Shown: positions 18,346 to 46,076 of the stretch, one piece after another
Position numbering within the stretch: position 1 is the stretch's first letter
How the letters are laid out: every line of letters begins with the position of its first letter
Origin: a virus
DNA: 48,347 nt
IMG/VR virus record: IMGVR_UViG_3300025525_000047
Location: 1-48,347 of that record
Reading direction: 5' to 3' (one strand)
The notes under the pieces: generated by a model
Database searches by the model: none
What the model was told of the DNA's origin: nothing
Seen by the model: only the letters and a program-made list of their open reading frames with translations
Made by a program: the position numbers and the translations under genes

Positions 18346-18783
18346 TTAAAGCTTTCTCAGAAGCTTTTTTGGAATATCATTTATATCGCTTTTATAAATA
18401 CCATCTAAAAGTCTATTGTATTCTTCTTCTGACAAATTCCCAGTGACGTTTAGCACACCTTGACCAACTTTCTCATAAAGTTTTCTTTTTGTTGCTGAGA
18501 AATATTGATTACAGTCGACGTATGTATCGTTAGTTAACCCATTTGATCCATTAGGTTCAATGTATACTAAGCTATCAAGATGTAACCCACTATTTTCAAA
18601 ATAATTTATCTTTTTATCTAACTGAGTGGTGCAGACACAAAGGTAATTATGTTCATCTTCAATAGCAACAACAATATAATAATGAGGGATTTCAATATTA
18701 ATAAATTCAGGTGCTACAATTTTGTAAATTACACCTAACTTTAAGGTGCTATTAATTACAAATTCAGCAGGGAAGTCCATCAT
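18346..18783 (-). CDS. MazF/PemK-like toxin candidate, partner of the Panacea protein
   Basis: A 145-residue protein whose ATG overlaps the last base(s) of the upstream Panacea gene (TAATG). The strand order looks like the PemK/MazF barrel: LGVIYKIVAPEFI, PHYYIVVAIEDEHNYLCVCTTQ, then DTYVDCNQYFSATKRKLYEKVGQGVLNVTGNLSEEEYNRLLDGI, where the last part matches the family's closing (…G.L…LSEEEY…L..). MazF-type toxins are ribonucleases. The catalytic residues cannot be assigned reliably by eye. Its place right after a Panacea antitoxin supports a toxin role. Confidence 0.65.
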   Translation of the reverse strand: MMDFPAEFVINSTLKLGVIYKIVAPEFINIEIPHYYIVVAIEDEHNYLCVCTTQLDKKINYFENSGLHLDSLVYIEPNGSNGLTNDTYVDCNQYFSATKRKLYEKVGQGVLNVTGNLSEEEYNRLLDGIYKSDINDIPKKLLRKL

Positions 18784-19349
18784 TAATCTTTCAATATTGA
18801 TTGAAGAGAGGAATTGTAATTGTATCTTGAAATGGAATTTTGAACTTCCTCAGCAGTAATGAAATCATTAAAAATCCCAGCACTTACATCCTCAAAAAAA
18901 TCTGTGATCACCATTTCATAACTATTTGGCATTGATTCGTTTAATAATTCTTTTTCATACCTCTTCCATTCCGGAAACTCATGTGACAAATCACGAAGTT
19001 TTATTGAGTCCATTGAGCCAAATTTGTTCCAAACGTATTCAAAAACCTTAATGTCAGAATTGGAAAAGTACTCTTTATCAAAATCTTTTAAAGCTTTAAT
19101 TTTGAAGCCGTTTACCGTGAAGAAATCGACTATAGAAACTCTTGAAATATCTATGGTATTTGAAGGAACTGGCCCATGAGGCAAAGCACTGTATTTATCT
19201 CTTGTTATGAGACGTCCATATTTATTCAAATGAATTCTATCTGAAAGCCAAAGAAGTTTCATTAATTTTAATCGATCAAGTGTATTGTCATCGCCTCTAA
19301 AAGCAAAAAACAATATTGAATTAATAATTTTGGAAGTACTGGAATTCAT
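18783..19349 (-). CDS. Panacea-domain antitoxin (SocA / DUF4065 family)
   Basis: A 188-residue protein with the Panacea signature: LDRLKLMKLLWLSDRIHL at about 24-41 and the SALPHGPVPSNTID block at about 54-67. Panacea proteins are antitoxins that pair with many unrelated toxins; Caulobacter SocA is a proteolytic adaptor of the family. It is encoded first, with the MazF-like toxin overlapping its stop, the usual antitoxin-toxin order. A clear promoter lies 24 bases upstream (19373-19405). Confidence 0.85.
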   Translation of the reverse strand: MNSSTSKIINSILFFAFRGDDNTLDRLKLMKLLWLSDRIHLNKYGRLITRDKYSALPHGPVPSNTIDISRVSIVDFFTVNGFKIKALKDFDKEYFSNSDIKVFEYVWNKFGSMDSIKLRDLSHEFPEWKRYEKELLNESMPNSYEMVITDFFEDVSAGIFNDFITAEEVQNSISRYNYNSSLQSILKD

Positions 19350-19372
19350 TTCTTACAGTCTGTTTCTTAGAA

Positions 19373-19405
19373 CAAAAGTAATACATATTAAACAAAAGAA
19401 CCAAA
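19373..19405 (-). promoter_or_regulatory. Bacteroidota-type promoter of the toxin-antitoxin pair
   Basis: On the minus strand TTTG (19405-19402), 21 bases, then TACTTTTG (19380-19373), an exact TAnnTTTG box. It lies in the 64-base gap between the restriction enzyme stop and the Panacea ATG at 19349. Transcription should start near 19368. The pair is thus expressed independently of the R-M genes. Confidence 0.75.
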
Positions 19406-19413
19406 TTTTTGAG

Positions 19414-20352
19414 TTATTTTCTAGGTCCTAAAAACCTATCCCCATTGAAATGAATCAAGTGATCAGGTATATCCATTAACCAAACCTCTGTTTCCCATGC
19501 GATGTTGTTTGAGTGCTTTTTAAACTCAGCCATATCAGGAAAGGCCGTCACATATATCTTTCCAGCAGAACAGTGCTTTAAAAGATCGTCTATTTCGACA
19601 ATTCGTTTTGGAGAAACAGGGCCATGAGAGGTCACAGCTTCAATCAAAAACAACCAGTTTCTATTTTTATCATAAATTACTACATCCGGTAGCTTGCTGT
19701 GTTGATCAATAGGAATATTAAGTGAGTTAAGTGTTTCTTGATCAAGATATAAATTCTTTTTTGCAGTGTCACCAAGATAAAGCAATAGTCCTCCGGGAGC
19801 AAACCTTGTTGCAAACTTTTCAATTATTGCTGCCTGAACCTCATTATGTCGACCAGAGGAAAGATTGATAGTTTCACCGCTTTGTAATCGAACCGGGATT
19901 TGGTTCATCTTCCTTTCTTTAATGTAGATTTCCGATAGCTTTACATAGGAGTCAAGAAAAATTGAAAGTTCATTTTCCCATTTCAGCGTACCGTATGTTT
20001 GAACCACTTTTAAGAACTGAGGAGTTAATGCATAATGAGCACGTGGACTATTCACTGGCAAATCAGGAATATCTGGATTGTAGTTTGCAATCCGAGCTTG
20101 CACGAATTGATGTAAAACTTGTCTTCTGAATGTTTCTCTTGTGTTAGGCGCATAGCTTTTGCTGTAGTGCTCGTTTACGAATGACATTATGCCTTTTGTG
20201 ACAGTTAAACTTCTACCTGTTGCATATTCCCAAGAATCATCCTCTTTTATCTGTGCCAATGCAAGTAGAGTTAAGCCTGACAATTCATTACATTGTGCGG
20301 GTGGAAGCCCTAAGGCTGAAAGAATTTCTTGAGATTCCCTAATTTTGGTCAT
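19414..20352 (-). CDS. Type II restriction endonuclease, BsuBI/PstI family
   Basis: A 312-residue enzyme with the family's signature in its C-terminal half: LPDVVIYDKN at 221-230 and FLIEAVTSHGPVSPKR at 235-250, which supply the PD...E nuclease core. The N-terminal half contains a helical domain with TRETFRRQ at 71-78, as in the family. BsuBI and PstI cut CTGCAG, and if this member does too, the phage's own DNA needs protection: CTGCAG occurs for example at 2205, 4988, 14988, 24656, 27321, 33597, 35668, 37351 and 45863. It is encoded 6 bases after the methyltransferase. Confidence 0.9.
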   Translation of the reverse strand: MTKIRESQEILSALGLPPAQCNELSGLTLLALAQIKEDDSWEYATGRSLTVTKGIMSFVNEHYSKSYAPNTRETFRRQVLHQFVQARIANYNPDIPDLPVNSPRAHYALTPQFLKVVQTYGTLKWENELSIFLDSYVKLSEIYIKERKMNQIPVRLQSGETINLSSGRHNEVQAAIIEKFATRFAPGGLLLYLGDTAKKNLYLDQETLNSLNIPIDQHSKLPDVVIYDKNRNWLFLIEAVTSHGPVSPKRIVEIDDLLKHCSAGKIYVTAFPDMAEFKKHSNNIAWETEVWLMDIPDHLIHFNGDRFLGPRK

Positions 20353-20358
20353 TTTGTG

Positions 20359-21948
20359 TCAAAGATTAATATGAAGTATATTTTTTATCAGAAGATTAAC
20401 ATTATCCATGCTGTAATTATTTGATTCAATTAATCGTTCTCCAATTTTTAAAATGAGTTCATAAGGAGGTAATTTCATCTCTCTTATTTCCGTTGCACTT
20501 ACATTTACGTTACCATTAAAAGACTGAAAATAAATATTATACAGGTCACTATTCAGTAAAGCACAAAGACCTATTACCTCAGTTTTTTTCATACAGCCAT
20601 TCTTTCGATAAATATAATTCAGTTTGTTTTCAAGACCTATCAATTTATATTCCTGATCATCAGAAAAAAATGGGGCTGCTATTAATCTACTTTTGTCATC
20701 CTTTGAACTAAACCTTCTAAGGATAATGTAATCCTTGGCCGGAACAAGAATTGACATTGATTCCGGACAAAATTCTATGAATTGACCTTTCCCTTTTATC
20801 ATTTTTGGCCATTCGATCTTCATTTTACAGATATTTTGTAGCCAAAATAAACTAACGCTTTGCACATCCTTACTAGGTTGGTCCTGTATGAATTTTATTG
20901 CCCTGAAAGAAACAACAGGCCCTGTTGAAACATGAATATCGAAGTCTCTTATTGTATTGTGCCAAGAGTTAACAAGCGAAAAAACAATTTCTTCACGTTT
21001 GTTTGAAGGAATGTGTAATATTTTTTCAGTCGAATTAAAGTCAATCAGTTCTTTGAGTAAATAGGATTTGCTATCTGAATTTGCGATATCTTCAACCCCG
21101 TTACTTGAAGAAATTTTCACAACGATGTCTTCAGCTTTTGATTGTTTAACAGCCCTAAGTATCAAAGTCTCTTGCAAGACACTATCTCGGTTGAAGGCAT
21201 CTTTTCGTGAGTTAAAGAGATGGATATTTGTAATAACTACATTCTTGAAAAACTCTAACCGAAAGGATTTAAAGTAGTTGCCTGAGGCAAAACTTCTTGG
21301 TGTGATGAAAATCAACTCCCCATATCTCTTGAGTAGTTTGGAAGATATCCCAAGAAATAATGCATAGATATTTGGCTGGCCACTTACCAACTCTTTTGCG
21401 GCTATTGCCTTCTCATCATCCCGTGACAGCTTGAAATAAGGAGGGTTTGAAATAATTATATCATAGAATTTCGGAAAAAAAGTTGATTCTTGCTCAAAAT
21501 ACCCATGGTTCTGAATCCTGAGAACAGTGGAGTTTGTTGTTACAAAATCTGTCTTTATAATAGTGTAAATTAACACTTTACCATTTGCCTTTACCCATGA
21601 TTGAAGATATGAAAGAGCCTGCTCAGTGTATGGAATGATTTCTTCATCAGTTTCATAACCTACCAAATTGATGTTTTCAACTTCATTACTGTGTAAAATA
21701 AGTTTTTCAACTAAAGCACAAGAAAGCACCCCCAAACCAATGCCTGGGTCACAAATATCCATACTTCGACTTTTAAACTGAGAAAGTGATGCCATAAGCT
21801 TAGCAACTTTCGTTGGTGTAAAAAACTGACCTTTGACTTTTTTACCCTTAACAGCATGACTGTTTGAGTAGATTACTCCAAGTCTATCAGCATAGCAACT
21901 TGGTAGTTCATTTTTTATCGAGGGGTGTGTAAGTATTAAATTGAGCAT
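20359..21948 (-). CDS. N6-adenine DNA methyltransferase of the R-M pair
   Basis: A 529-residue methyltransferase. SAM-binding motif I is DPGIGLGVLS at 67-76, preceded by the GQFFTPTKVAKLMASL motif (40-55) usual in this group, and the catalytic motif IV is NPPY at 168-171. The C-terminal part (beyond 300) should be the target-recognition domain. With the BsuBI/PstI nuclease downstream it forms a type II system expected to methylate the A of CTGCAG. The methyltransferase is translated first, which lets modification precede restriction. No controller protein gene was seen. Confidence 0.9.
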   Translation of the reverse strand: MLNLILTHPSIKNELPSCYADRLGVIYSNSHAVKGKKVKGQFFTPTKVAKLMASLSQFKSRSMDICDPGIGLGVLSCALVEKLILHSNEVENINLVGYETDEEIIPYTEQALSYLQSWVKANGKVLIYTIIKTDFVTTNSTVLRIQNHGYFEQESTFFPKFYDIIISNPPYFKLSRDDEKAIAAKELVSGQPNIYALFLGISSKLLKRYGELIFITPRSFASGNYFKSFRLEFFKNVVITNIHLFNSRKDAFNRDSVLQETLILRAVKQSKAEDIVVKISSSNGVEDIANSDSKSYLLKELIDFNSTEKILHIPSNKREEIVFSLVNSWHNTIRDFDIHVSTGPVVSFRAIKFIQDQPSKDVQSVSLFWLQNICKMKIEWPKMIKGKGQFIEFCPESMSILVPAKDYIILRRFSSKDDKSRLIAAPFFSDDQEYKLIGLENKLNYIYRKNGCMKKTEVIGLCALLNSDLYNIYFQSFNGNVNVSATEIREMKLPPYELILKIGERLIESNNYSMDNVNLLIKNILHINL

Positions 21949-21968
21949 CTTGTCTACTTGAGGAGAAT

Positions 21969-23270
21969 TTATAATTTGAATATATCCATGGAAAGAAACG
22001 AGAGCTTATCATCAACGAAACAAAGATCCTCATTAAAGCCAAAAACACGGCAAATTCGTTGTGATACATACTTTCCAATGTTATGAATATCTTTCTCAGT
22101 TAATTTTGCTGGGGAAACCTTTCTCGAAATCTTAAAGTTCTGATGTTGTCGATTATTTATACTATTTCGCATATGAATATGCCTAAGGTCGTACTGGTTA
22201 TGAACTCCATATGGATAGTAGTTTAGTACATTTTTAAAGCTTATCTGAAATAAGCATTCTTCACTGATTCCAAAATGTTGATAAACTAACCTTAAGAACC
22301 CTAAAAACATCATAGAATAACCAACTATTGGAGTTAGATGAATTTCAACTTGATTATGGGGAACTTCGTTTCGATCTTTGCATAGACGAGTAAAAGAACT
22401 CGAAAATCCAGCCTCAACAAAACCGTTTTCTAACATTTCAAGATAAGATGTGGGGTATGAATCTATTCTATTGTTTATGATAACAATGCCGTCAATTTTA
22501 TGCTCGTAGTCGTCATGTACAAAAAATAAACGTTTATCTGGAAATGGGAGGTGTCCTAAAGAGTTCTTTTCAAACCAACTATGAATACTGTTGGTACTTA
22601 TTTCTATTTTCTCGTTAAACAGTTCACTGGGAACTAAAGTAAACAAAACAACTGGTTTCTTATAGTCAGTTTTGGTGTGAATATCTGAGAAAAGCTGCTT
22701 TGAATTAAAATTGTCTGCAAATTGCTCACTATCTATGTCCAGTAAATTACGGGAGGTTAAAAAACTATTGAACTGGTCTAACCTGCTTCTTGAATTATCA
22801 AACATGTCTCTAATTTCATAATGTTTTGCAACATCAATTTTGTCATTACGTCTTATATGATAGGTGTTCTTATCCCTCACCATGTGAGGTTTATTCTTAC
22901 TTTCTGGAACCTGAATAATGAGAATTACTTTCAGATTGTCTGGGATAGGTATGATAACCGGGTCAACGTAGTGAATTGGGGGCTCAATATTTGATGAGAT
23001 GATCTGGTTGAACCATTCAATAACAGGCCTTCCATTTATTTCGGCTTCAACCCCAATAATTTCAAGTTTATCCGAAATACCGAAAACAAGAAATCCACCA
23101 GTTGCATTGGAAAATGCGGACAAATCTTTAGCAAGTTGTGTCTTGCCTCTATCGGATAAATCAATATTCTCTTTATAATCGAGGTACTGACCTTCCTTTT
23201 CTTTTGTATTTACAACTAAATCATAAATGTCGTCGTAATTTAATTCTGAAACTTTCTTTGAAAATATCAT
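21969..23270 (-). CDS. AlbA_2 (Schlafen-type) domain protein, possible defence component
   Basis: A 433-residue protein whose first ~150 residues are an AlbA_2 domain: EGQYLDYKENIDLSD at 26-40, AFSNATGGFLVFGIS at 52-66, and YHIRRNDKIDVA further on. AlbA_2/Schlafen domains bind nucleic acid and some cleave RNA. The rest (about 160-433) is not a family I recognise and may be the effector or sensor. It stands 5 bases after the 225-residue gene and 20 bases before the methyltransferase, so it is part of the same cargo run. A defence role is inferred from the neighbours. Confidence 0.75.
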   Translation of the reverse strand: MIFSKKVSELNYDDIYDLVVNTKEKEGQYLDYKENIDLSDRGKTQLAKDLSAFSNATGGFLVFGISDKLEIIGVEAEINGRPVIEWFNQIISSNIEPPIHYVDPVIIPIPDNLKVILIIQVPESKNKPHMVRDKNTYHIRRNDKIDVAKHYEIRDMFDNSRSRLDQFNSFLTSRNLLDIDSEQFADNFNSKQLFSDIHTKTDYKKPVVLFTLVPSELFNEKIEISTNSIHSWFEKNSLGHLPFPDKRLFFVHDDYEHKIDGIVIINNRIDSYPTSYLEMLENGFVEAGFSSSFTRLCKDRNEVPHNQVEIHLTPIVGYSMMFLGFLRLVYQHFGISEECLFQISFKNVLNYYPYGVHNQYDLRHIHMRNSINNRQHQNFKISRKVSPAKLTEKDIHNIGKYVSQRICRVFGFNEDLCFVDDKLSFLSMDIFKL

Positions 23271-23275
23271 TTTTC

Positions 23276-23953
23276 TTATTTTTTTGGTAGACCAATGCCA
23301 ACTGCAATACCATTGACCACTTCAGCGCTTTTTACTTTGATTGCAATATCTGTTAAGTTTCCAATGTTAACAATAAACGGCTTATTTGATTGACCTCTAA
23401 TAAAAATTCTGAATTCCTTCTGATAATCATACTTGATTGATTTTATAAAAGGACTCAATTCACCTTCATAAGTGTTAAAATCTGTGTAAGTTATTGGTTC
23501 ATATTGATATTTCTTGTGTTTTCTCTTTAGTGCTTTCTCTAGTCTTATGAAAAACTCTGGGATATTGTATATAAGCATTGCGCTGTTGCCAAAACGAGCG
23601 AGAGAGGGATTTAGAGTAATTGGATGAATCTTAAAGTCTTCATTAATTAACGAATAGTCTATATCATCACGAGTTATTGCTGACATGCAGTACAAATTAC
23701 CATTGAATGAACCATCATCAACATAAAGCTGAGCTTTAGTATTAAACTCCAAGGAAATACCTTCATTTTCAATTTTTAACCAATCAATTTGCTTTATGTA
23801 GGTTTTACATTCATTTTCGTCACCTCTTGTATAGTTATCATCTACTTCTCTAAAATACTTAACTGTATTGCAATACACTGTTCCATGTTGAAGTAAATTA
23901 TCAATGTTTTCTTCAGAACCAAATTTAAATAAAAAAACTAAAGTTACTGTCAT
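23276..23953 (-). CDS. Unknown cargo protein paired with the AlbA_2 protein
   Basis: A 225-residue protein without signal peptide or membrane segment. Visible features are GTVYCNTVKYFREVDDNYTRGDENE at about 24-48, where a YF-R-x-x-D-D...RGD-x-x-E pattern stands out, and KSIKYDYQKEFRIFIRG near 170-187. I have an impression of similar proteins of this layout in bacterial islands but know no function. An enzyme acting on nucleotide or NAD-like substrates is conceivable from the paired acidic and arginine motifs, but this is speculation. It is the first gene of the cargo run and lies downstream of the late operon A terminator. Confidence 0.65.
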   Translation of the reverse strand: MTVTLVFLFKFGSEENIDNLLQHGTVYCNTVKYFREVDDNYTRGDENECKTYIKQIDWLKIENEGISLEFNTKAQLYVDDGSFNGNLYCMSAITRDDIDYSLINEDFKIHPITLNPSLARFGNSAMLIYNIPEFFIRLEKALKRKHKKYQYEPITYTDFNTYEGELSPFIKSIKYDYQKEFRIFIRGQSNKPFIVNIGNLTDIAIKVKSAEVVNGIAVGIGLPKK

Positions 23954-26565: not shown

Positions 26566-28038
26566 TTAGAAAAAACCTAATGATTCTTTAGTTAAATCTT
26601 CCGGTATTGCTGCAATGCCATTCAAATGATAATCTACTGCATAGCAAAGCAGGTCAACATATTCATCGTGGGTCTTTAGTGGAAAGCCACAGACCTCATC
26701 AATAAAACTTTCGTTCCACTCCCCATCAACAAGATAAACCCGACCACATTCTATTGATGGAGATGCAGCATTGAGTCTGGTTTCCTTGCTTTCTGATGGA
26801 GAAGGTGTCTGTGTGACATTTATTTTCGTTTCCCTTTCGAGCTGTTGTATGACACTCTTGCCGTTTGCTTTTGGTTCAATCCGCAAGCTTCCGCGGTTGT
26901 CATAACCGTTGGCTTGTATGTAACCAGGGACAAACTTGATCAGGTCTGGGAATTGCTTGTATAGCTTTTTAGCATCAAAAATGAAAAGCGCATTATTGAC
27001 AAAAGTTGTGGCAATTATTCCTGAAGGGTCGTTGTCTGTCTTTTTCTTCTTTTCATCATATGCAGTGTCCATAAAGAAATGTACAGGTGCTTTCCCTCTA
27101 ATGGCCATAAACTGAGTCAAAGGAATTCTCCTAAACCATTCTTCTTTGATAATATTACCACCTTCCACTGTAGGCGACTGACCATACTGTCCGGAATATC
27201 CTTTACTTCCAAGATCAATCATAGCTTCATCCAGTACCTTTCTGGATAACCTGACGGGGTCAAGAAGTCCGTCAATATATTTTTCCTTCAATGCTGCTGG
27301 TTTCACATTATCTGATAGCTCTGCAGGTAAACAGACATGCTTAATATTTTCACCTTTGCGTTTCAGTAAGTATCCGGTAACATCTTCCTCATGAAGTCTT
27401 TGCATGATGGTCACGACTGGCGTATTTTCCTTGTTTACCTTACGCGAAGAAAGGGTCTTTGTATGTTCGTTAGCTTGTTCCCTTAGTGGACCGGAGCTGG
27501 CTTGTTTTGGATTCTGCGGGTCGTCATTGATGATTAAGTGTCCATGCTTTCCGGTAATGGTTCCACCTGTTGAAGTTGAATATCTGGCTCCTGTCTTTGT
27601 GTTTTCGTAAAATCCTTTTGCAGATTTATCAGGTCGAATCTTAACTTCTGGAAAATACGCCTGGTAGCGCTCACTGGTGATGATATCCTTGCTCTTTGAA
27701 GCATGATCAAGTGAAAGATCGCCTGAGTAGGAATTGGATATTACTCTTATTGTAGGGTCAACAGTCCACAGCCATGTTGGCCACATCACCGTCACAATTG
27801 TTGATTTTGTTGTGCCCGGTGGAATATTAATGAGAAGGTCATAAGGCTTTGGGTCACGTCGCACGATATGGACGGATAACTCCTGAAGCTCCTGGCACAG
27901 GAATGGAATATGCCAGTTGTATACCGGTTCTTCTTTGATTATCACGTCCCAGAATTCTTTAACGAAATAAAAGAAGTTGCGTTTGCACATCTCCCGGTTA
28001 TATGCAATTGTAATAGCTTCAACATTAGCCTTGCTCAT
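26566..28038 (-). CDS. terL: Terminase large subunit
   Basis: A 490-residue DNA-packaging motor. Walker A is PPGTTKST at 73-80 (with a C-terminal-lysine variant of the loop), Walker B is LIINDDP at 168-174, and a coupling-type S/T block lies at about 209-219 (TPVVTIMQRLHEEDVTG). The C-terminal RNase-H-like nuclease part begins near HFFMDTAYDE at about 316 and includes later acidic residues. It should cut concatemeric DNA and drive packaging through the portal. It overlaps the small subunit gene by 14 bases. Confidence 0.95.
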   Translation of the reverse strand: MSKANVEAITIAYNREMCKRNFFYFVKEFWDVIIKEEPVYNWHIPFLCQELQELSVHIVRRDPKPYDLLINIPPGTTKSTIVTVMWPTWLWTVDPTIRVISNSYSGDLSLDHASKSKDIITSERYQAYFPEVKIRPDKSAKGFYENTKTGARYSTSTGGTITGKHGHLIINDDPQNPKQASSGPLREQANEHTKTLSSRKVNKENTPVVTIMQRLHEEDVTGYLLKRKGENIKHVCLPAELSDNVKPAALKEKYIDGLLDPVRLSRKVLDEAMIDLGSKGYSGQYGQSPTVEGGNIIKEEWFRRIPLTQFMAIRGKAPVHFFMDTAYDEKKKKTDNDPSGIIATTFVNNALFIFDAKKLYKQFPDLIKFVPGYIQANGYDNRGSLRIEPKANGKSVIQQLERETKINVTQTPSPSESKETRLNAASPSIECGRVYLVDGEWNESFIDEVCGFPLKTHDEYVDLLCYAVDYHLNGIAAIPEDLTKESLGFF

Positions 28039-28456
28039 TTTTTGATTTCTCTAAAAGCTTACCTATTGTTGCAAGTTCCTCATCTGAAAGGTTCTTAAAA
28101 TCAATTTCCTGAGAAATTGCAATACTTTTACCATCAATACCACTGACCTCCCTGCGTTCGGTATAACCTCTGTCTTTTCCTTTTGTCTTGAGGTAAAAGA
28201 TAATCGCCGTTGTATCTTCGCTTTTAATCTTTTTGAGTAGTGAAGCCTCCGCAAAATCTATTTGAATTTCCTGAATATCGTCTGCTTTTAAAGCAAATGC
28301 TGGATCTTCCTTATACCAGTTGTAATAAGTCACACGCGATACCCCTGCTTTCTCACATGCATAGGCCACAATGCCGCTAGTTTCGCGCAAGTATTCAAGA
28401 AGCTTTTCTTTCTTCTTTTTCTTGGACAATCGTGTAAGTTTCTGGCCCTGTCTCAT
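28025..28456 (-). CDS. terS: Terminase small subunit
   Basis: A 143-residue protein with a basic N-terminus (RLSKKKKKEKLLEYL) and an HTH region: ETSGIVAYACEKAGVSRVTYYNWYKED at about 26-52, the characteristic fold for recognising phage DNA. A helical oligomerisation region follows, then the ETRREVSG-like YTERREVSGIDGKS segment seen in many small terminases. It lies 2 bases after the PP-loop gene and overlaps terL. Confidence 0.85.
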   Translation of the reverse strand: MRQGQKLTRLSKKKKKEKLLEYLRETSGIVAYACEKAGVSRVTYYNWYKEDPAFALKADDIQEIQIDFAEASLLKKIKSEDTTAIIFYLKTKGKDRGYTERREVSGIDGKSIAISQEIDFKNLSDEELATIGKLLEKSKNEQG

Positions 28457-28458
28457 TT

Positions 28459-29529
28459 TTAATCCATGTTTTCATTAAAAATCTCTGAAGTAACAACACG
28501 TACGGTTCTGTTTTTCGGGTCTCCTGCCAGTAGAATCTGATAGATCTTCCTGCAAGTTTCAGATGAGTTTTTCGGGGTCACTTTTGCATAAAGTTTCTTT
28601 GCCTGCTTATAGCCTGGATAGAGTCCCGGATGCTGAGAGGCCTTCTTAAGTTCAAGCCTGAGAATTTCTTTATAATCTTTATCCTTGCCTGTTTCAAATC
28701 GCGAATCTTGTCTTGAACTCCTGAACATATCTGTTTCCCAATAAAGCATCACAAGATCTGCGTTGGGTTCTCTGCGGATAATTCTTTCATAAAGGTTTGG
28801 GTAGAATTCCAGAACCTTTGGAAGGGACTTTATGGTATCGACACTAAAGAACTGACTTATCCGGAGCTTGTTTATCGGAACCCCTGTCTTGTACAGATAA
28901 AGATATGTTTCAGGGAATGGTATGTTATTTAGCTTGAGGTAAAGCCATACATCATTATCTCTCCAGTCATAGATCGGATAAACAAATTGTGACTTAGACT
29001 TTTCGGCAATCGAATTCAGACGTTGCACTGATTCATATATTCTTAGCCCAACAAAAACAGGTAAGCCATCAAAAAGAACCTTTGAAAAGACTTGATATGT
29101 CATTCCCATGACAAACTTCTCATGATTGCGTATAGCGAACTTTGGCATAGGTTTAATCCAAATATCTTCTTTGCCCGGTTCCCAGCAGATAAAGCTTTCA
29201 TCATTCTCCAACCTGTTGCAGCAGTTGTAATGCTTTATAGGTAAACAGAACCAATAAAACTTTGCACCCAATGACAGGAACATGGAGCGCCATTCGAATA
29301 CTGTCCTTTCAAAGTCAGGATAAACGCCTTCCTCATCATAGAATGTAACGATTAGTCGGTTGAATGGAATGCTGTACTTGAGCATCGTTTTAATGATGAG
29401 GTCTCCCATAACGATTGAATCCTTTCCCCCGGAGAAGGAAAGGACTGTCATGTGATGCTTGTTGAAGGTTTCCAGAATCCTCCTTTCAGCAGCTGTCACA
29501 ACATCAATATTGTATGTTTTGGTTTTCAT
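28459..29529 (-). CDS. PP-loop ATPase, PAPS-reductase-like / IbrA (DUF3440) type
   Basis: A 356-residue protein. The PP-loop SGGKDS lies at 33-38. Downstream, FVYPIYDWRDNDVWLYLK and then GVPINKLRISQFF match the C-terminal pattern of the IbrA/DUF3440 group of PAPS-reductase-like proteins. Such enzymes activate a substrate as an adenylate; the E. coli IbrA/IbrB pair is known from prophages, but its chemistry is unknown. The start overlaps the ParB-like gene at 29526 by 4 bases, as for ibrB-ibrA. It sits between a second such pair and the terminase genes. Confidence 0.85.
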   Translation of the reverse strand: MKTKTYNIDVVTAAERRILETFNKHHMTVLSFSGGKDSIVMGDLIIKTMLKYSIPFNRLIVTFYDEEGVYPDFERTVFEWRSMFLSLGAKFYWFCLPIKHYNCCNRLENDESFICWEPGKEDIWIKPMPKFAIRNHEKFVMGMTYQVFSKVLFDGLPVFVGLRIYESVQRLNSIAEKSKSQFVYPIYDWRDNDVWLYLKLNNIPFPETYLYLYKTGVPINKLRISQFFSVDTIKSLPKVLEFYPNLYERIIRREPNADLVMLYWETDMFRSSRQDSRFETGKDKDYKEILRLELKKASQHPGLYPGYKQAKKLYAKVTPKNSSETCRKIYQILLAGDPKNRTVRVVTSEIFNENMD

Positions 29530-30047
29530 TTATATTTCCTCAATGACTCGGCATTATTGAAAGTCTGGCGTTTTATGATCGTATTAAGAAAAGTCTCACG
29601 ATCAATTTTTGAAAGTCTGAAAATCTCCTCTCTGCTCATGCCAATCTCTTTGGAAATTTCATCTACCGTTTTACCTTTATCCAAAAGTGATTTGACTATG
29701 TTTTCCATTGGTTCAAGAAGGTGTGTCCCTCTGGCACGATTGAATGTAACTGTACCGTACATGTTCTTACTTTCATCTTCATGCGTCACCACCACAACAG
29801 GAATCTTTCCACCCAACATTGATTTCAAAGGCTCTCTCCCGGAAACTAGCCATCTGTGAAAACCGTCTATGATGGTATAATCCGGCCTGATTACAATCGG
29901 GAAACAGAAACCATTTGTCAGTATGCTTTGCATGAGAAGTTTTAGGTTTTTCTCAAGTACTTTGTTGGGGTTATAATCATTTGGCCTGATTATTTCCCTG
30001 TCAACAAACTTCATTTCCTTAAGTGGCTTAAAGAGGTCTCTTTCCAT
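29526..30047 (-). CDS. ParB/Srx-fold protein, IbrB-like
   Basis: A 173-residue protein with the ParB N-terminal fold: IIRPNDYNPNKVLEKNL, FPIVIRPDYTIIDGFHRW (the GxHR-type nucleotide-binding motif as DGFHRW) and a C-terminal HTH (TVDEISKEIGMSREEIFRLS). This arrangement is as in IbrB. ParB-fold domains bind CTP or ATP. It pairs with the overlapping IbrA-like gene. Confidence 0.85.
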   Translation of the reverse strand: MERDLFKPLKEMKFVDREIIRPNDYNPNKVLEKNLKLLMQSILTNGFCFPIVIRPDYTIIDGFHRWLVSGREPLKSMLGGKIPVVVVTHEDESKNMYGTVTFNRARGTHLLEPMENIVKSLLDKGKTVDEISKEIGMSREEIFRLSKIDRETFLNTIIKRQTFNNAESLRKYK

Positions 30048-30049
30048 GA

Positions 30050-30628
30050 TCAGATCGTTATTTCACCTCCACAGTGGGGGCATTTCATTGTTCTTGCAGG
30101 TTGCATTCCTGCATCGATGTTTTCATACTGGGCATTTTGTTCTGCCTGAAGGTCATTGCTGAAATTGTCATTTCTTATACCAGGCTTTGTAAAGTCTACA
30201 CCCATGTTATCGAGACTAACTTCATTCAGGATTGTATCAAGGTACTCAGGAGAAAAGCCGATGATATCCATTTCCCCAATATCTTTGATCAAAGCCTCAA
30301 CCTGTGTAAAGTTTACATAACTCATGCTCTGAATCTTGTTATCCTCGAGCAATAGTTTCAGTTTCTGTTTTTCGTTCAGACCCTTTATAACTGTAACTTT
30401 TGCGGACTTTTCACCCATCTTTTCCAGAGCCATTTTCTTACCATGGCCACAGATAATCTGATTGTTTTCATCACAGATGATGCGATAATATTGGCCATAC
30501 CGATCCATGCTCTGTACGAGTGCATCTATCTGCGCGTGTGTATGGGTGTTGGGGTTGCCAGGGTGCTCTTTTAACTCTGACAGGTTAAGGACTTTATCCT
30601 CGTGAATGATTTTAGATTGTTTTGACAT
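30050..30628 (-). CDS. Second ParB-fold protein with C-terminal zinc ribbon
   Basis: I take the ATG at 30628 (SKQSKIIHEDKV); the longer open frame upstream only overlaps the neighbouring PP-loop gene. The 192-residue product has the ParB core: ELKEHPGNPNTHTHAQIDALV, RIICDENNQIICGHGKKMAL (GHGK as the nucleotide motif) and a following helical LLLEDNKIQ region. It ends with half of a zinc ribbon, MKCPHCGGEITI. Similar ParB modules are fused to or found next to phage DNA-modification enzymes. It overlaps the PP-loop gene upstream by 17 bases and lies 2 bases before the IbrB-like gene. Confidence 0.8.
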   Translation of the reverse strand: MSKQSKIIHEDKVLNLSELKEHPGNPNTHTHAQIDALVQSMDRYGQYYRIICDENNQIICGHGKKMALEKMGEKSAKVTVIKGLNEKQKLKLLLEDNKIQSMSYVNFTQVEALIKDIGEMDIIGFSPEYLDTILNEVSLDNMGVDFTKPGIRNDNFSNDLQAEQNAQYENIDAGMQPARTMKCPHCGGEITI

Positions 30629-31424
30629 GCTTTTTAAGTGTTTCAATTGCTTCAGGAAAATATTTTGCTGCTTTGTGTAATGTTTCTGGGCTAATCTGAT
30701 AAAGTAGCTCCCAGGAATGCTCCCTGCCAAAGGATGAGGTTTGCACGGGCCATACACCGGTACCACTAATCCAACCCTCAGGATCGTAATAGATTGGGGG
30801 GATATTTCTGTTCTTGAAATAGTGACAGGCTGCCAGCACATGTTCATGTTTCCAGTGTGCTATTGGAGACAACCTTGTTACTCCATTTTTATCTGTATAG
30901 AAATTCTTTCCCTTTTCACCGGTGTAGTTGCCATCTTGTGTTCTTCTCCCAAGAATGATAATATCAAGATTTGCGTTGTGAAAAAACTCTGCCTGTGCAC
31001 GATGCTGGATAAGTGCGTACCACTTGGACATCAATTCCGATCTGTCAGGAAATACCATGTGTGGATTTTTAACAAGCCATTCATATCCAATGTTGGCATC
31101 CCACGTTATGCAACCGGAAGGTCTGTTCATTTTTAGCCAGGCGAGATAATGTGGATATTCCAGCTCTCTGGATAGACCAATAACAGATTGATGGATTCCG
31201 GCTATCTCACATACTACCTGAAGGGCAATGCTGTCTTTTCCTCCAGACCATGCATATCCGGCATTCTTTTCTCCAACCCTGCACTTGATATCCATGGCAG
31301 CATCTGCAACAAGGCTTTCAATCTGGTCAGATGAAACAATCTTGTCTATATTGTCCCACAGCCTCACAAAAGCCTCGTTACTTGCATTCTGCTTTCTTCC
31401 CGGTGATTGAAAATCTACGATCAA
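30612..31424 (-). CDS. Second PP-loop ATPase, PAPS-reductase-like
   Basis: A 270-residue protein with the PP-loop WSGGKDS at 59-65 and a following LQVVCEIAG helix. The later region (IIILGRRTQDGN and SPIAHWKHEHVLAACHYF) holds the substrate-side motif of CysH-like proteins. It is different from the IbrA-like protein at 28459, so two separate PP-loop enzymes exist, each beside a ParB-fold gene. No C-terminal ECGLH-type catalytic cysteine motif of true PAPS reductases was seen, so sulfate reduction is unlikely. Confidence 0.8.
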   Translation of the reverse strand: MIVDFQSPGRKQNASNEAFVRLWDNIDKIVSSDQIESLVADAAMDIKCRVGEKNAGYAWSGGKDSIALQVVCEIAGIHQSVIGLSRELEYPHYLAWLKMNRPSGCITWDANIGYEWLVKNPHMVFPDRSELMSKWYALIQHRAQAEFFHNANLDIIILGRRTQDGNYTGEKGKNFYTDKNGVTRLSPIAHWKHEHVLAACHYFKNRNIPPIYYDPEGWISGTGVWPVQTSSFGREHSWELLYQISPETLHKAAKYFPEAIETLKKHVKTI

Positions 31425-32020
31425 AGGTGAATTGCTGTTGAAAGGGTGAATGAATCTATACCTGTGTCATACCTCAACTGAATCCATGAAAGGTTGGTTA
31501 GTTTTAGCCTTATGTTTGTAACAAAACCGGGCTGATCTCTGATTGAATAACCAGCATTAAAGATTACATGCTTCCATCCATATCCGGCAAGTATCTGAAG
31601 CCTGTCTTTCTGCAAGAACTTTTCCGCTCGATAGAAGTTATCCCAAGTGAAGTCAACCATATACTTATTGAGTTTGACTGTTCCTGAAATCGTTTCGCTG
31701 AAGGTCTCTGACTTGAGGTCATAAATTGACCTGAACAGCAGGTAGTATTTCTGTTGATAGTTTACATTGACCCAAAGTTGCGGTATGACTGCCTCCCTGG
31801 AGAAGTTATACTGTAACACCGGTGTAAGAGAAATCCAGTTGGCCGGTTGAACCTTGTAACCAACGAAAGGTGCAGCAGCAAGTTTTCCTGTACCATCTGT
31901 TGAGGTTGAAAATGGCATCCAGTATCTAAACTTTGTCGGTTGTGTGATACCGTCGTAGACTTGAGCTGAAGCTGTTGCTGCAAATGTCAGCATCAGCAGA
32001 ATTGCGATAATTCGTTTCAT
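31421..32020 (-). CDS. Exported protein, outer-membrane beta-barrel-like
   Basis: A 199-residue protein with a clear signal peptide (MKRIIAILLMLTFAATASA, cleavage likely before QVYDG). The remainder alternates polar and hydrophobic residues with many aromatic girdle residues (FVGYKVQPANWISLTPVLQYNF, WVNVNYQQKYYLLFRSIYDL, AGYGWKHVIFNAGYSI) and ends in FTLSTAIHL, consistent with a small outer-membrane barrel of about eight to ten strands. It lies between the PP-loop gene (4-base overlap) and the small genes below the symporter. Phage genes for outer-membrane proteins can block superinfection; transport is an alternative. Confidence 0.65.
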   Translation of the reverse strand: MKRIIAILLMLTFAATASAQVYDGITQPTKFRYWMPFSTSTDGTGKLAAAPFVGYKVQPANWISLTPVLQYNFSREAVIPQLWVNVNYQQKYYLLFRSIYDLKSETFSETISGTVKLNKYMVDFTWDNFYRAEKFLQKDRLQILAGYGWKHVIFNAGYSIRDQPGFVTNIRLKLTNLSWIQLRYDTGIDSFTLSTAIHL

Positions 32021-32328
32021 GAAGTTTGATTTTGAGTTTTAATGAATGATTTGAGAATTTTCTTGAGTGCATTTTTTGCGTTCAGTGCAGGCATAAATAT
32101 TGTATCCGGCTCCTGAAAAACTTTTGACCTTGTAATTACATTTCCGTTAATATCTAGGATTGCTTCCTTCTTGAGGTCTACTTTCCTAAGATGGACCTTT
32201 GTCATGTTGAAAGCAAAGAGGGAATGCCCACGCTTAATTTTTATACTTCCAAGCCTTTTATACTCTTTCTGAGCCTCTGCGACCAAATGAGTATCTGGCT
32301 TTAATTGGATTGGGTTAAATTCGTTCAT
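32017..32328 (-). CDS. Small conserved phage protein, unknown function
   Basis: I place the start at the ATG at 32328 (NEFNPIQLKPDTH), one base after the upstream stop; the earlier in-frame codons lie inside the neighbouring gene. About 103 residues, basic, with YKRLGSIKIKRGHSLFAFN and a C-terminal helix ALKKILKSFIK. It has no membrane segment or signal. It overlaps the exported-protein gene by 4 bases. Its role is unknown. Confidence 0.65.
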   Translation of the reverse strand: MNEFNPIQLKPDTHLVAEAQKEYKRLGSIKIKRGHSLFAFNMTKVHLRKVDLKKEAILDINGNVITRSKVFQEPDTIFMPALNAKNALKKILKSFIKTQNQTS

Positions 32329-32329
32329 C

Positions 32330-32599
32330 TTAGTTTGGATTGATTGGAAAATCAGGTTTCTCAAAAAAGACTGTTTCTTCAGCTGACATCCATACCGGAG
32401 GTTGGGTGTGTCCGGAAAGAACAGATAGCCATATCCGGCCGGTACGGTTAACCTTTGCTAGTTCTTCCGGAGTCAATTCCCAGCAGGAAATACATTGCTT
32501 TCCATCGGTGAACACTGGTAGAGGAGAGCATTCCTCCTCTGATATTCCTTTGGGTGGTCCAAGCTGTTGATTCTGCTCTTTAAACTTTACTGGTTTCAT
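32330..32599 (-). CDS. Small conserved Bacteroidota phage protein
   Basis: An 89-residue protein with KPVKFKEQNQQLGPPKG at the start and CISCWELTPEELAKVNRTGRIWLSVLSG followed by QPPVWMSAEETVF. The pattern of ISCWxLTxxE..K...TGxxWLSVL...QPPVxxS is one I recognise from small proteins in Bacteroidota phages and conjugative elements, function unknown. It overlaps the symporter gene by 20 bases and lies directly upstream of the next gene. Confidence 0.75.
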   Translation of the reverse strand: MKPVKFKEQNQQLGPPKGISEEECSPLPVFTDGKQCISCWELTPEELAKVNRTGRIWLSVLSGHTQPPVWMSAEETVFFEKPDFPINPN

Positions 32600-33986
32600 C
32601 TTTCAATGTGATTGATATGAGACCTGAAGCAAGGATGGTAAAGAGTGATCCTGTAACAATCAATAGCGTATTGCCAGAGAAGTTTCCAATTGCGAAAATT
32701 GGAAGACCTATTGTGATACTGGTCAGAAGTCCATAGAACAATCCTTTTTCGCTCATCTTTATGCCTTTGATTGCAAAGGCTGTTGGAAGCATGACTGAAG
32801 CTCTAAGGGTGCCATAGATCAGGAACAGGTGTAAGATCTTCAGTCCAGGGATGTTGGATATTGTGATTGCTAAAAAGGTTACAACAATCATTGAAAACTT
32901 TGCAACCTGAACAGGAGACCATCTTCTGAATCCTTCAAATCGTTTCACCAGATCATGGCCCGAAACAGAAGAAACAGCGCATATGATACTGTCAACAGTG
33001 GAAATCAGGCCGGAAAGAATCATGACCATGAAAACATACAAGAACCATTTAGGTGCAAAAGCCATCACAGCCCCTACATTGACAAGTTGTGGGTCTGTAA
33101 TATCTAAACCTTTTCCTGCAACAAAAAAGCCGAAAATCGCAAGAGAAAGCGGTACAACTCCAAAGATTGCTGCTGCCCAAAGCATTGATTTCTTTACCTG
33201 ACCTTCTTTGATGGACCATATTCTTTGCCAGAACATCTGATCTCCAAATGTCCCGGATAGAAGTCCTATCGTTGTAGGAATTCCGAATGCAAGTGTTACA
33301 GCTAATCCTTTACCGCTAAACATCCCATGTATGTCGCCAGCTTTTCCGGAAAGCCCCTGCAAGAGTGTTTCTGTTCCTCCACCATTGATGAACATAAACG
33401 GCAATCCAATAAGTAGTACTATCACTATCCAGAGCATCTGCCAGTAATCAGTCAGGATGCTGGCTTTAATGCCCTTTGTGTAAGTGTATGCAAGTGGAAT
33501 AACAGCAAGCAGAACTGTTGTAAGTGTGAATGGTAGACCTGTAATTTTCCACATGATTGTTGCTCCGGCAAGGAGCTGCACTGCAAAGCTGAGTATCTGC
33601 AGACCGAAACTTTCAACTAGGTAGAGATTGTGTGTCCTGTTACTAAACTTTGTCCTGATGAAATCAGAGAATGTCCAGCCATGAGGATGCATTTCTCTCA
33701 TCCAGGATGCGAAGTATGCAAAGATTACAAGTGTTAAAACGTTTGGTGTAATAAACCAGAAAACACCAACCCAACCAGCAGTATAGGCTTTCTCTGAAGC
33801 AATAAACATTGCCGGTGCCCATACCCATGTTGCAGCCAGTGAGAATGCTGCCATCCACCAGGGGATGCTGCGGTTGGCAACAAGATAGTTCAGTTTGGAC
33901 GTGTTTCCTTTTCGGATAAATTTTGTGATAAGGGATACTGCGATGAAGTAAAACAGCAGTAATAATGCTCCATGTGTCTGTGTCAT
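32580..33986 (-). CDS. Sodium:solute symporter (SSS family)
   Basis: A 468-residue membrane transporter with about 13 hydrophobic helices. It has the SSS start pattern (NYLVANRSIPWWMAAFSLAAT), a helix-3 region GWTFSDFIRTKFSNR, and the family's STVDS-like sodium-site motif in SGLISTVDSIICAVSSV at about 330-346. It is the first gene of late operon A, directly below the late promoter, and its start is at the ATG at 33986. The substrate cannot be told; urea, sugars, nucleosides and organic acids are all known for the family. An inner-membrane transporter in a late phage operon is unusual. Confidence 0.9.
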   Translation of the reverse strand: MTQTHGALLLLFYFIAVSLITKFIRKGNTSKLNYLVANRSIPWWMAAFSLAATWVWAPAMFIASEKAYTAGWVGVFWFITPNVLTLVIFAYFASWMREMHPHGWTFSDFIRTKFSNRTHNLYLVESFGLQILSFAVQLLAGATIMWKITGLPFTLTTVLLAVIPLAYTYTKGIKASILTDYWQMLWIVIVLLIGLPFMFINGGGTETLLQGLSGKAGDIHGMFSGKGLAVTLAFGIPTTIGLLSGTFGDQMFWQRIWSIKEGQVKKSMLWAAAIFGVVPLSLAIFGFFVAGKGLDITDPQLVNVGAVMAFAPKWFLYVFMVMILSGLISTVDSIICAVSSVSGHDLVKRFEGFRRWSPVQVAKFSMIVVTFLAITISNIPGLKILHLFLIYGTLRASVMLPTAFAIKGIKMSEKGLFYGLLTSITIGLPIFAIGNFSGNTLLIVTGSLFTILASGLISITLKDETSKV

Positions 33987-43763: not shown

Positions 43764-44385
43764 AATCTTTAATGGTTTTTTTGAGTTTATTTAATGCGAT
43801 AATTGCTTCTTTTAAATCTTTGGGATAATTGTGAATGTTGTTCCGGAGCACATTCTCTTGCCGCGTAATAAGTTCAAGGTTATCAATCCGAATATCTGAT
43901 TGGTCACCATTTTTGAATGCAACAATTAACCCTTCAGGGATAGGCCCGTTATGTTGCATCCAGAGTTGACGGTGCAGAAGCTCAAATTTTCCGTTTACTC
44001 TTATGTGAGCATAATATCTTCCGCCAGAATCTTTCCTTACTGAAATGTAACCGTCATACTTTGTGTTTGGTGGTACCTGTCCGGGCTTAAAGAAAGTCTT
44101 ACTACACTTTTGCTTTACTTCCGGAGACATCTTTTTACCTTTATTAGCCGGCACATTGCCTTTCTTAAACCGGTATGGTTTACCAAGATTTGCAAGGTTC
44201 TTTTTAAACCTGGTAGATGCCTCACTTTGATGAAATTCAGCTGACTTCTTTAATCCAAGAATAAATGCCTGATTATAAACTGCATTGACCGACACATCCA
44301 GAAACATCGCAATAACAGCTGCGCTTACATGAGGATACCTTGATTCCAGATATCTTAATTCCGAACCTGTCCACTTGTGTCTCAT
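43750..44385 (-). CDS. HNH-type protein with N-terminal helix-turn-helix
   Basis: A 211-residue protein. Residues 1-45 look like a Myb/SANT-type DNA-binding helix set (HKWTGSELRYLESRYPHVSAAVIAMFLDVSVNAVYNQA). The later part holds the HNH_3-like core: LLHRQLWMQHNGPIPEGLIVAFKNGDQSDIRIDNLELI at about 143-180. It resembles phage HNH proteins, many of which are free-standing homing or packaging-linked nucleases. Overlaps the ParB gene by 4 bases. Confidence 0.85.
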   Translation of the reverse strand: MRHKWTGSELRYLESRYPHVSAAVIAMFLDVSVNAVYNQAFILGLKKSAEFHQSEASTRFKKNLANLGKPYRFKKGNVPANKGKKMSPEVKQKCSKTFFKPGQVPPNTKYDGYISVRKDSGGRYYAHIRVNGKFELLHRQLWMQHNGPIPEGLIVAFKNGDQSDIRIDNLELITRQENVLRNNIHNYPKDLKEAIIALNKLKKTIKDYGKE

Positions 44386-46076
44386 TTCTGAAGCTCTTCA
44401 ATCTTTGAATTAATCTTTTCCTTGCGATTGAGATAAACTCCCTGGTGCTTCAGCTCTATCTCCTTTACCTCATCCGGATAGTATTCTGCCGCAATCTGAA
44501 TGAGGGAATTGGCCTCGCTAATCTGGTAGTTTGGAGTTGAAGTGTTAAGATTTTTCTGAAGAAAAGCCCGGAAGAGTCGATTGATCTGATTGATATCGAG
44601 TTTTGACACAATCTCAGCCTTTCTTTTACTTGCGATGAAACCGTTAGTATTTGGGTTTAACTCTTCCCTAAGTGGAACAAAGCCGATACTATCCAGCAGA
44701 ACAATGTATACTGCTCTCCATTCAATGGGAGTTAATTCTCTTTCAATATTTGAATATACATTGTTTGAAAGGAGCTCTTTGACTTCCAAATAAGTCTTTT
44801 CAAAAGCAAGTTCAGCATTACGGTTGTCTTTTGCTTGCAGTTCAATTATTTGTTTCTGTTTACCTACTTCGCCATCTTCTGCTTTATTACTTTTACCAGT
44901 TCCAGTAATTTCATACTCAAGAATTTTACCTTTATCTGTGCCAGCAGTCATGAAGACTTTTCTCAGATTTCCTTTAGAGACCTTTTTGTTGTAATCTTCA
45001 AGGTTTTCGTTATACTCTTCAAGCTCAGATTCATAATCATAAAGTGCGTCATTAAATTCCTCTACACTGTCAAAATCTTCCCTTTTTGGTTGTTCAGGAG
45101 GTTCTGGTGCAAACACTTTCTGAAAACCATTAGACCAGCTCATTTCAACAACAGGCACGCCGCGATTTTTCAAAGATTCTACCTGTTTTTCCTCTTCATT
45201 ATAAATATATGATGGGATTCCAAGAATTATTTCAGGCTGTTCCTCTTGAATTCTGTTCATTTCACGCTCAAAATGAATATCACTCTTCTTTTTGAAACAA
45301 TCTCGATCTAAGCAAAGTCCAGATTCCGGAGCATCAGGAAAAAGCAATAGATTTGATGAAGTGTTTTTCGGGCAAATAGTGCATGAGCCTGCTTTACTAT
45401 TCAGAGAAAGATCTTCAAGATTGAATTGAGCTTCACTTAGTTTAAGGGTGAATCTCTTCTCTATCATTTGCTTGAGATTTTTGACAGTCGGGCAGCTCCA
45501 GTATTGTTTTCGATCTTCAAAATCAGTATTGAAAATTTCCATCTGGTAAACAGATTCTAATTTAGAAATCTCAAAAGCGTGTGATACAGTGATGATATCC
45601 TGTTGAAGGAGTTGTCCGAAATTATAGATCAGATCGTTTAGCTTTACCCTTTGTCGGATATAAGTCACACTCTTGCCAAATCGGTCGCTGAGTGAATTGT
45701 AGTCATATTTCCCTTTGTTGATCAGGCTCTGGAAGGCTAAAGCCTCTTCCAAAGGGCTCACGTCTTTTCTCTGAAGGTTTTCTGTGATCATCAAATCGAA
45801 GGCTTCTTCATCTGAAAGGTCTCTTACAATTACCGGGACTTCTTTCAAATCAGCAATTACTGCTGCAGATAGTCTTCGTGAACCACAGATTACTTCAAAG
45901 GTTGGAATGTCATACTTTTGAACTGAAGTGTTGAGCCTGGCAATGATGGGTTGAAGTATTCCAACCTGTTTAATGCTTTCGGCAAGTTCTTCAATCCCTT
46001 CCATATCAAACTCCTTACGAGGGTTCATTGAGCTCTCTTGGAGTTGATTTGTTTCGATGTACTGAATTTGTTGCAT
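44382..46076 (-). CDS. ParB/Spo0J-like protein with zinc-finger-like insert
   Basis: A 564-residue protein. The ParB N-terminal domain is at 1-110: SMNPRKEFDMEGIEELAESIKQVGILQPIIAR, CGSRRLSAAVIADLKEVPVIV, NLQRKDVSPLEEALAF. A central HTH region follows (YNSLSDRFGKSVTYIRQRV). At about 222-260 four cysteines (CTIC.., CLDRDC) suggest a zinc-finger module. The remainder is a charged, helical region and a C-terminal domain. It is probably a phage DNA-binding or segregation and regulation protein; a partitioning partner (ParA) is not seen. Confidence 0.9.
   Translation of the reverse strand: MQQIQYIETNQLQESSMNPRKEFDMEGIEELAESIKQVGILQPIIARLNTSVQKYDIPTFEVICGSRRLSAAVIADLKEVPVIVRDLSDEEAFDLMITENLQRKDVSPLEEALAFQSLINKGKYDYNSLSDRFGKSVTYIRQRVKLNDLIYNFGQLLQQDIITVSHAFEISKLESVYQMEIFNTDFEDRKQYWSCPTVKNLKQMIEKRFTLKLSEAQFNLEDLSLNSKAGSCTICPKNTSSNLLLFPDAPESGLCLDRDCFKKKSDIHFEREMNRIQEEQPEIILGIPSYIYNEEEKQVESLKNRGVPVVEMSWSNGFQKVFAPEPPEQPKREDFDSVEEFNDALYDYESELEEYNENLEDYNKKVSKGNLRKVFMTAGTDKGKILEYEITGTGKSNKAEDGEVGKQKQIIELQAKDNRNAELAFEKTYLEVKELLSNNVYSNIERELTPIEWRAVYIVLLDSIGFVPLREELNPNTNGFIASKRKAEIVSKLDINQINRLFRAFLQKNLNTSTPNYQISEANSLIQIAAEYYPDEVKEIELKHQGVYLNRKEKINSKIEELQK

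Follow-up and report, generated by a model that had tools for sequence, protein, structure and literature searches.

Why would a phage place a membrane transporter at the head of the genes that package its DNA? The question arises from a viral stretch of 48,347 nucleotides (IMG/VR record IMGVR_UViG_3300025525_000047, positions 1 to 48,347; referred to in its entirety as the window), in which a sodium:solute symporter (SSS) and an exported barrel-like protein are encoded ahead of two PP-loop ATPases (PP1 and PP2), two ParB-type proteins (ParB1 and ParB2) and the terminase. In related phages the same place is generally held by an importer, which belongs to one of three kinds. We lean, with modest confidence, towards a module of late phage genes that uses an externally supplied small molecule for nucleic-acid modification, with the symporter as its importer at the inner membrane.

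All four open reading frames (ORFs) marked in the initial annotation of this region were recovered at their positions, and the genes follow one another on the minus strand in the order SSS, 89-amino acid (aa) protein, 115-aa protein, barrel, PP1, ParB1, ParB2, PP2, terS and terL:

32580..33986, minus strand: SSS-family sodium:solute symporter in the importer slot, 468 aa (Pfam SSF 2.9e-23; phrog_20720 1.7e-113; 28 close viral relatives)
32330..32599, minus strand: 89-aa protein confined to close Bacteroidales relatives, few loci (phrog_11885 1e-08, unknown function)
32017..32364, minus strand: 115-aa protein confined to close Bacteroidales relatives, few loci (weak phrog_15043 match, 1.4e-04)
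31421..32020, minus strand: exported 12-strand outer-membrane beta-barrel, predicted pore, 199 aa (AlphaFold2 model; polar, net-positive lumen)
30612..31424, minus strand: PP1, PP-loop ATPase of the PAPS_reduct superfamily with an SGGKDS motif (phrog_424 1e-11; PF01507 3.1e-04, just under the cut-off)
30050..30628, minus strand: ParB1, ParB-type protein with a C-terminal CxxC pair (phrog_620 3.7e-37; the longest ORF extends to 30847, but a start at 30628 is likelier)
29526..30047, minus strand: ParB2, ParB_N protein, IbrB-like (PF02195 2.3e-07; phrog_2159 2e-60)
28459..29529, minus strand: PP2, PP-loop ATPase, IbrA-like (PF01507 1.4e-10; phrog_2302 5.9e-71)
28025..28456, minus strand: terminase small subunit, terS (phrog_309 5.3e-12)
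26566..28038, minus strand: terminase large subunit, terL (phrog_38 8.2e-90)

An importer slot upstream of PP-loop and ParB genes

Searching with the aligned symporters brought up relatives in 202 viral stretches and 166 genome stretches, from which 80 viral and 79 genome loci were kept. Within this group, transporter genes are therefore not unusual in terminase operons, contrary to the expectation of the initial annotation. PP2 is carried by 74 of the 80 viral loci (including L016, which retains a 3′ remnant only), the other six being deletion forms described below, and by 64 of the 79 genome loci. Slot scans were anchored on ParB2, PP2 and PP1, each limited to its 80 best loci, and were tallied over distinct phage genes that had 5 kb or more of sequence upstream, after duplicates with identical last 120 residues had been dropped. 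The 5 kb upstream contain an importer gene for 50/51 ParB2-anchored, 32/42 PP2-anchored and 42/45 PP1-anchored genes, and the 5 kb downstream for none in any of the three sets, which bears out the proposed link between the transporter and the PP-loop/ParB genes.

The slot is found upstream of a ParB1/PP2/ParB2 module, often with PP1 as well, which itself stands directly upstream of the terminase. It is filled by an SSS (accompanied by a barrel in Bacteroidetes-type phages), by a mini-SSS of 331–368 aa, or by an ATP-binding cassette (ABC) permease together with an SsuA-type binding protein. Profile matches of the mini-SSS to SSS reach 97.4% for the 368-aa form and 78.8% for the 331-aa form, and the structure model (predicted local distance difference test, pLDDT, 83.1) is closest to the SSS transporters CHT1 (Z 25.9), DUR3 (Z 23.2) and NIS (Z 23.0). 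The ABC form, with a BPD_transp_1 permease (2.3e-18 and 1.1e-26) and an NMT1/SsuA-type lipoprotein (2.8e-21 and 2.1e-30), is unrelated to SSS; its binding proteins are closest to SsuA and TauA of the sulfonate/taurine type. Two such permease and binding protein pairs lie at L206:4998-6711 and L254:5785-7487, and no ATPase gene for them was recognised in the stretches read, no further search having been made. Because unrelated importers share one slot, selection appears to act on import itself, which argues that import is what the module needs.

The symporter frame overlaps or abuts the PP1 frame in L102, L346, L352 and L376, and lies 4.2 kb upstream in L135. At four loci scored as lacking an importer (L384, 9228-9998, Cupin_2 2.5e-08; L369; L326; L329), cupin-domain proteins are encoded upstream of the PP-loop genes.

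A similar neighbourhood surrounds non-phage symporters. Thirteen genome loci carried the SSS alone, and exclusion of L068, whose neighbours are phage-like, left 12 non-phage loci. A PP-loop-motif ORF is found within 4 kb in 9 of these 12, and the motif occurs in 10 of 149 near ORFs vs none of 120 far ORFs (Fisher p 0.002). Four of these motif ORFs, in L039, L041, L044 and L086, are asparagine-synthetase (AsnB)-type genes (Pfam matches of 3.4e-71 and 3.9e-69 for those of L039 and L044, which adjoin the symporter), and at L050, by our own reading only, a porin-like gene precedes the SSS and an aminoacyl-tRNA-synthetase-like gene follows it. Among the phages, the L384 module includes a glutamine amidotransferase-like gene (GATase_6 2.2e-05, under the cut-off; asparagine-synthase model 1.6e-07), and L029 has one with a weaker match. 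Judging from these sequence matches, the neighbours of the symporter are likely ATP-using ligase-type enzymes in both phage and non-phage settings. In wider bacterial surveys, an SSS relative was found at E 1e-70 in 1/297 and 4/286 genomes; L415-L417 from the second survey contain no PP-loop motif, but at only 4.3 kb these loci decide little.

Two further features were seen at the non-phage loci. Proteins of 329–337 aa with a zinc-ribbon-like start are encoded beside the asparagine-synthetase/SSS pair (L039:7176-8165, L041:1665-2657, L086:7234-8247), and a Pfam run on the L039 protein returned a Spo11-type Toprim match (3.1e-06); together with the AsnB/SSS pair they possibly constitute a bacterial DNA-acting system. 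On a Kaiserbacteria chromosome, a second, oppositely oriented PP-loop-motif gene adjoins the symporter (L043:11516-12388).

The symporter and the exported barrel

The window symporter scores 82.8 bits against the Pfam SSF gathering cut-off of 22.8 bits, over residues 34-422, in agreement with its initial description as a full-length SSS transporter; the SSS label is used here in this Pfam sense. S329 and T330 are invariant in 18/18 aligned phage sequences. We take this pair to be the equivalent of the Na2 sodium site of PutP and vSGLT (PutP S340/T341), which suggests a sodium-coupled transporter. The family phrog_20720, to which no function is assigned, also matches the Clostridia-type (1.3e-218) and marine-type (6e-119) symporters, where marine-type is our label for loci ordered ParB1-SSS-PP2-ParB2 and says nothing on habitat.

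Among SSS members with solved structures, profile matches were obtained to the urea symporter DUR3 (1.8e-29) and the choline transporter CHT (2.5e-18), as well as to SGLT, vSGLT and SiaT. Unlike these proteins, the window symporter is phage-borne, adjoins a terminase region and falls under the TIGR00813 cut-off, and it is distant from every one of them, so that family membership assigns no substrate. A phylogenetic tree groups the Bacteroidetes-phage symporters in one clade (100/100). PADLOC returned no match for the SSS, the barrel or PP1.

The symporter scan recovered 28 viral loci with a barrel gene downstream in all of them, and a separate barrel scan returned the identical 28 contigs. This joint recurrence argues that the pairing is not due to chance. 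The SSS frame extends to 768 aa in L027 (9992-12298) and in the Prevotella contig L035; in L027 it spans both symporter and barrel, separated by a signal-peptide-like segment.

In 7 of the 28 contigs, representing three lineages (five contigs of one, L016 and L025), a deletion has fused the 5′ part of the barrel gene to the 3′ end of PP2. The fusion preserves the reading frame in two lineages; PP1, ParB1 and ParB2 are removed where present, and the symporter is kept. Symporters without the PP-loop/ParB quartet, which the initial annotation had named as grounds for abandoning a link between the two, thus exist among close relatives; the barrel–PP2 junctions nevertheless identify them as later losses.

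The AlphaFold2 model of the barrel (16 aligned sequences; mean pLDDT 84.6, predicted template modelling score 0.75) shows 12 strands after a signal-peptide-like helix, as expected for the exported outer-membrane-barrel-like protein proposed earlier, and 31421-32020 is accordingly modelled as a barrel and not as some other fold. Solved 12-strand barrels match it at Z 14–19, including autotransporter domains, FapF, the COG4313 channel, KdgM, NanC and others. Each of the 12 strands has one polar face and an opposite, more hydrophobic face. The inward face keeps R32, R97, K116, R171, D123 and D185 in 16/16 sequences and R140 in 14/16, and all 16 carry a net positive charge there (+1 to +8). Although the fold alone does not show a pore role, in our reading the model describes a pore through which small anions or zwitterions would pass.

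KdgM (Z 17.4, root-mean-square deviation 2.5, 157 residues aligned) and NanC (Z 14.8) are signal-peptide-bearing 12-strand channels whose lumens are positive, as in the model family here. The window barrel differs in that no Pfam family matches its sequence at E 0.1, and other 12-strand barrels match it equally well; as it has no Pfam, NCBIfam or PHROG family match, it is not filed as a KdgM/NanC member. A barrel search in 393 genomes of one order gave three matches, one strong (the source genome itself) and two very weak.

Taken together, a symporter paired with an exported barrel-like protein is confirmed overall. In the interpretation that accompanied this observation, the barrel prediction, the idea of a route through both membranes and the connection to the PP-loop/ParB genes stand, while the claimed rarity and the reach of the route need qualifying: the two-membrane route applies to Bacteroidetes-type phages, and no barrel gene was seen in Clostridia-type, marine-type or Treponema SSS loci. 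Two features make a small organic anion or zwitterion the probable substrate, namely the net-positive lumen and the closeness of the ABC systems that replace the symporter to the sulfonate/taurine type; this is a weak step in the argument.

Possible roles of the module

PP1 and PP2 match PF01507 or PHROG families named for phosphoadenosine phosphosulfate (PAPS) reductase. The motif ECGxH, which we take to be the catalytic signature of PAPS reductase (CysH), is present in 0/361 PP2 and 0/236 PP1 frames, and a PAPS-reductase activity is therefore disfavoured. Neither protein has an Asn_synthase domain or a QueC match in Pfam. PP2 has weak matches to BrxP (2.8e-10) and DndC (5.3e-04), PP-loop enzymes of BREX and DNA phosphorothioation, both DNA-modifying defence systems. 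By the NCBIfam cut-off it is not a DndC (19 vs 290.4 bits), it has one nearly invariant cysteine and PP1 has none, and no cysteine desulfurase, DndD/E or PglZ was seen among the module genes. ParB1 matches phrog_498, a family named DNA methyltransferase (9.4e-26).

The PP-loop and ParB_N genes (PF01507, PF02195) also form the adjacent pair typical of IbrA/IbrB, and relatives bear those names; the module differs in having a second PP-loop protein, a second ParB and an importer. A close cultured arrangement is gp35-gp38 of Faecalibacterium phage FP_Taranis, with a "transporter membrane protein" (a mini-SSS), a ParB, a PAPS reductase family protein noted as IbrA and a ParB noted as IbrB, followed by terS and terL. 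Its symporter is of the 331-aa mini-SSS type, and it is without PP1 and barrel.

Among published systems, the phage CmoA/CmoX/CmoY carboxymethylcytosine pathway offers a parallel, as its AsnB-like ATP-dependent amide ligase frequently has ParB neighbours (PMC12783734). PP1 and PP2 are not Asn_synthase proteins, and the word "transporter" is absent from the main text of that paper. ParB-type proteins accompany DNA modification in other reports as well (PMC12839542, PMC10853773). YhhQ transporters are described as scattered among phages with 7-deazaguanine DNA modification (PMC6884629), whereas the transporter gene here commonly occupies a fixed position next to the enzyme genes. Literature searches on a phage symporter or on this gene set, covering open-access titles, abstracts and passages, found no description of the importer slot; in that material only separate pieces are in print, namely PAPS reductase as host metabolism and scattered YhhQ transporters.

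We prefer a role in nucleic-acid modification because of the BrxP and DndC matches, the company that ParB-type proteins keep with DNA modification elsewhere, and the IbrA/IbrB genes behind the FP_Taranis transporter. In this scheme the barrel of Bacteroidetes-type phages would pass the substrate across the outer membrane and the sodium-coupled SSS would take it across the inner one. Adenylation of the target or the substrate, and the joining of both, would then fall to the PP-loop enzymes, with the ParB-type proteins supplying DNA or NTP binding. The most likely target would be phage DNA, hypermodified late in infection beside packaging.

Several observations weigh against this scheme. Transport, binding and modification are predicted from sequence and models throughout, and no constant gene forming a DNA-modification "handle" was found in the module. 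Seeding of the anchoring profiles with SSS-bearing loci biases the tallies toward co-occurrence. Ten of the 42 PP2-anchored genes, mostly with more divergent PP2, have no importer, and the Riemerella-type cultured phage PJN03 (ON245412) encodes ParB1-ParB2-PP2-terS-terL with importer absent from the stretch read; import is therefore not always needed. The SSS stays intact in the three deletion lineages that lost the quartet and the end of the barrel, and Treponema hosts are diderm, yet their loci are without a barrel. The symporter scores 120.1 vs 184 bits for TIGR00813, a shortfall that we ascribe to divergence, given that the symporter passes the Pfam test and aligns over its full length. 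A single phage origin of the SSS finds no support in the tree; outside the Bacteroidetes-phage clade, the remaining phage and bacterial sequences are intermingled.

Some of the same evidence can be read as transcription control, the main rival, which we judge rather unlikely: PP2 and ParB2 would co-activate late prophage genes in the manner of IbrA/IbrB, and a signal or cofactor, not a building block, would enter through the importer. The FP_Taranis relatives are annotated IbrA/IbrB with the note "co-activator of prophage gene expression", the name IbrA is used in other phage records, and the late gene region opens with the module. The IbrA/IbrB label is, however, an annotation, and two PP-loop ATPases, with glutamine amidotransferase-like genes in some relatives, suggest synthesis over signalling. 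A nutritional role, in which a PAPS reductase and uptake of sulfonate or another nutrient serve auxiliary sulfur metabolism, would account for the PF01507 and PHROG matches and the SsuA/TauA-like binding proteins, and such genes are classed as host metabolism in two papers (PMC11318856, PMC10434257). It is improbable given the missing ECGxH motif, and constant ParB partners and a place beside the terminase are ill-suited to a nutrient pathway.

Less probable again is an effect on the host envelope, such as superinfection exclusion or pre-lysis ion balance, exerted by symporter and barrel without relation to the PP-loop genes. Phages do carry outer-membrane proteins, for example Lom, and the symporter outlives the quartet in three lineages; but the slot precedes ParB/PP-loop genes in Clostridia-, Bacteroidetes- and marine-type phages alike, is filled by unrelated importers, and has a counterpart in the non-phage symporters that adjoin PP-loop-motif genes. 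Finally, the importer could be a host gene acquired once and carried by the module without a role, as modules lacking any importer might suggest. This we consider very unlikely, since, without selection for import, one would hardly expect three importer types in one place and motifs conserved across deep divergence.

Returning to import for nucleic-acid modification, the systems may, as a tentative generalisation, form a widespread phage class in which hypermodification depends on an extracellular precursor and a dedicated importer (with a pore in Bacteroidetes-type phages) supplies a pair of PP-loop ligases and a pair of ParB-type proteins at the packaging stage. If so, modification of the packaged genome would depend on what surrounds the cell. 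PP-loop/ParB sets are common in phages and often filed as PAPS reductase metabolism; a frequent importer in a fixed place, replaced three ways, would mean that the set consumes an outside substance, which narrows the chemistry of the module. Should the product be a DNA modification, restriction escape by many gut phages would hinge on a nutrient.

Other genes of the window

The symporter is probably the first gene of a late operon, judging from a 484-base upstream gap and gene order only. The Bacteroidetes-type promoter pattern occurs twice vs 3.24 times expected by chance and is uninformative. Amid the late genes, positions 18346-23953 have a low GC content (0.31–0.35) and encode unknown genes and a DNA methyltransferase-type gene (20359-21948; phrog_1600 1.3e-82), and this segment looks like inserted restriction-modification cargo. 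A third ParB-type gene lies outside the module at 44382-46076 and encodes a 564-aa protein with ParB_N and ParB helix-turn-helix domains.

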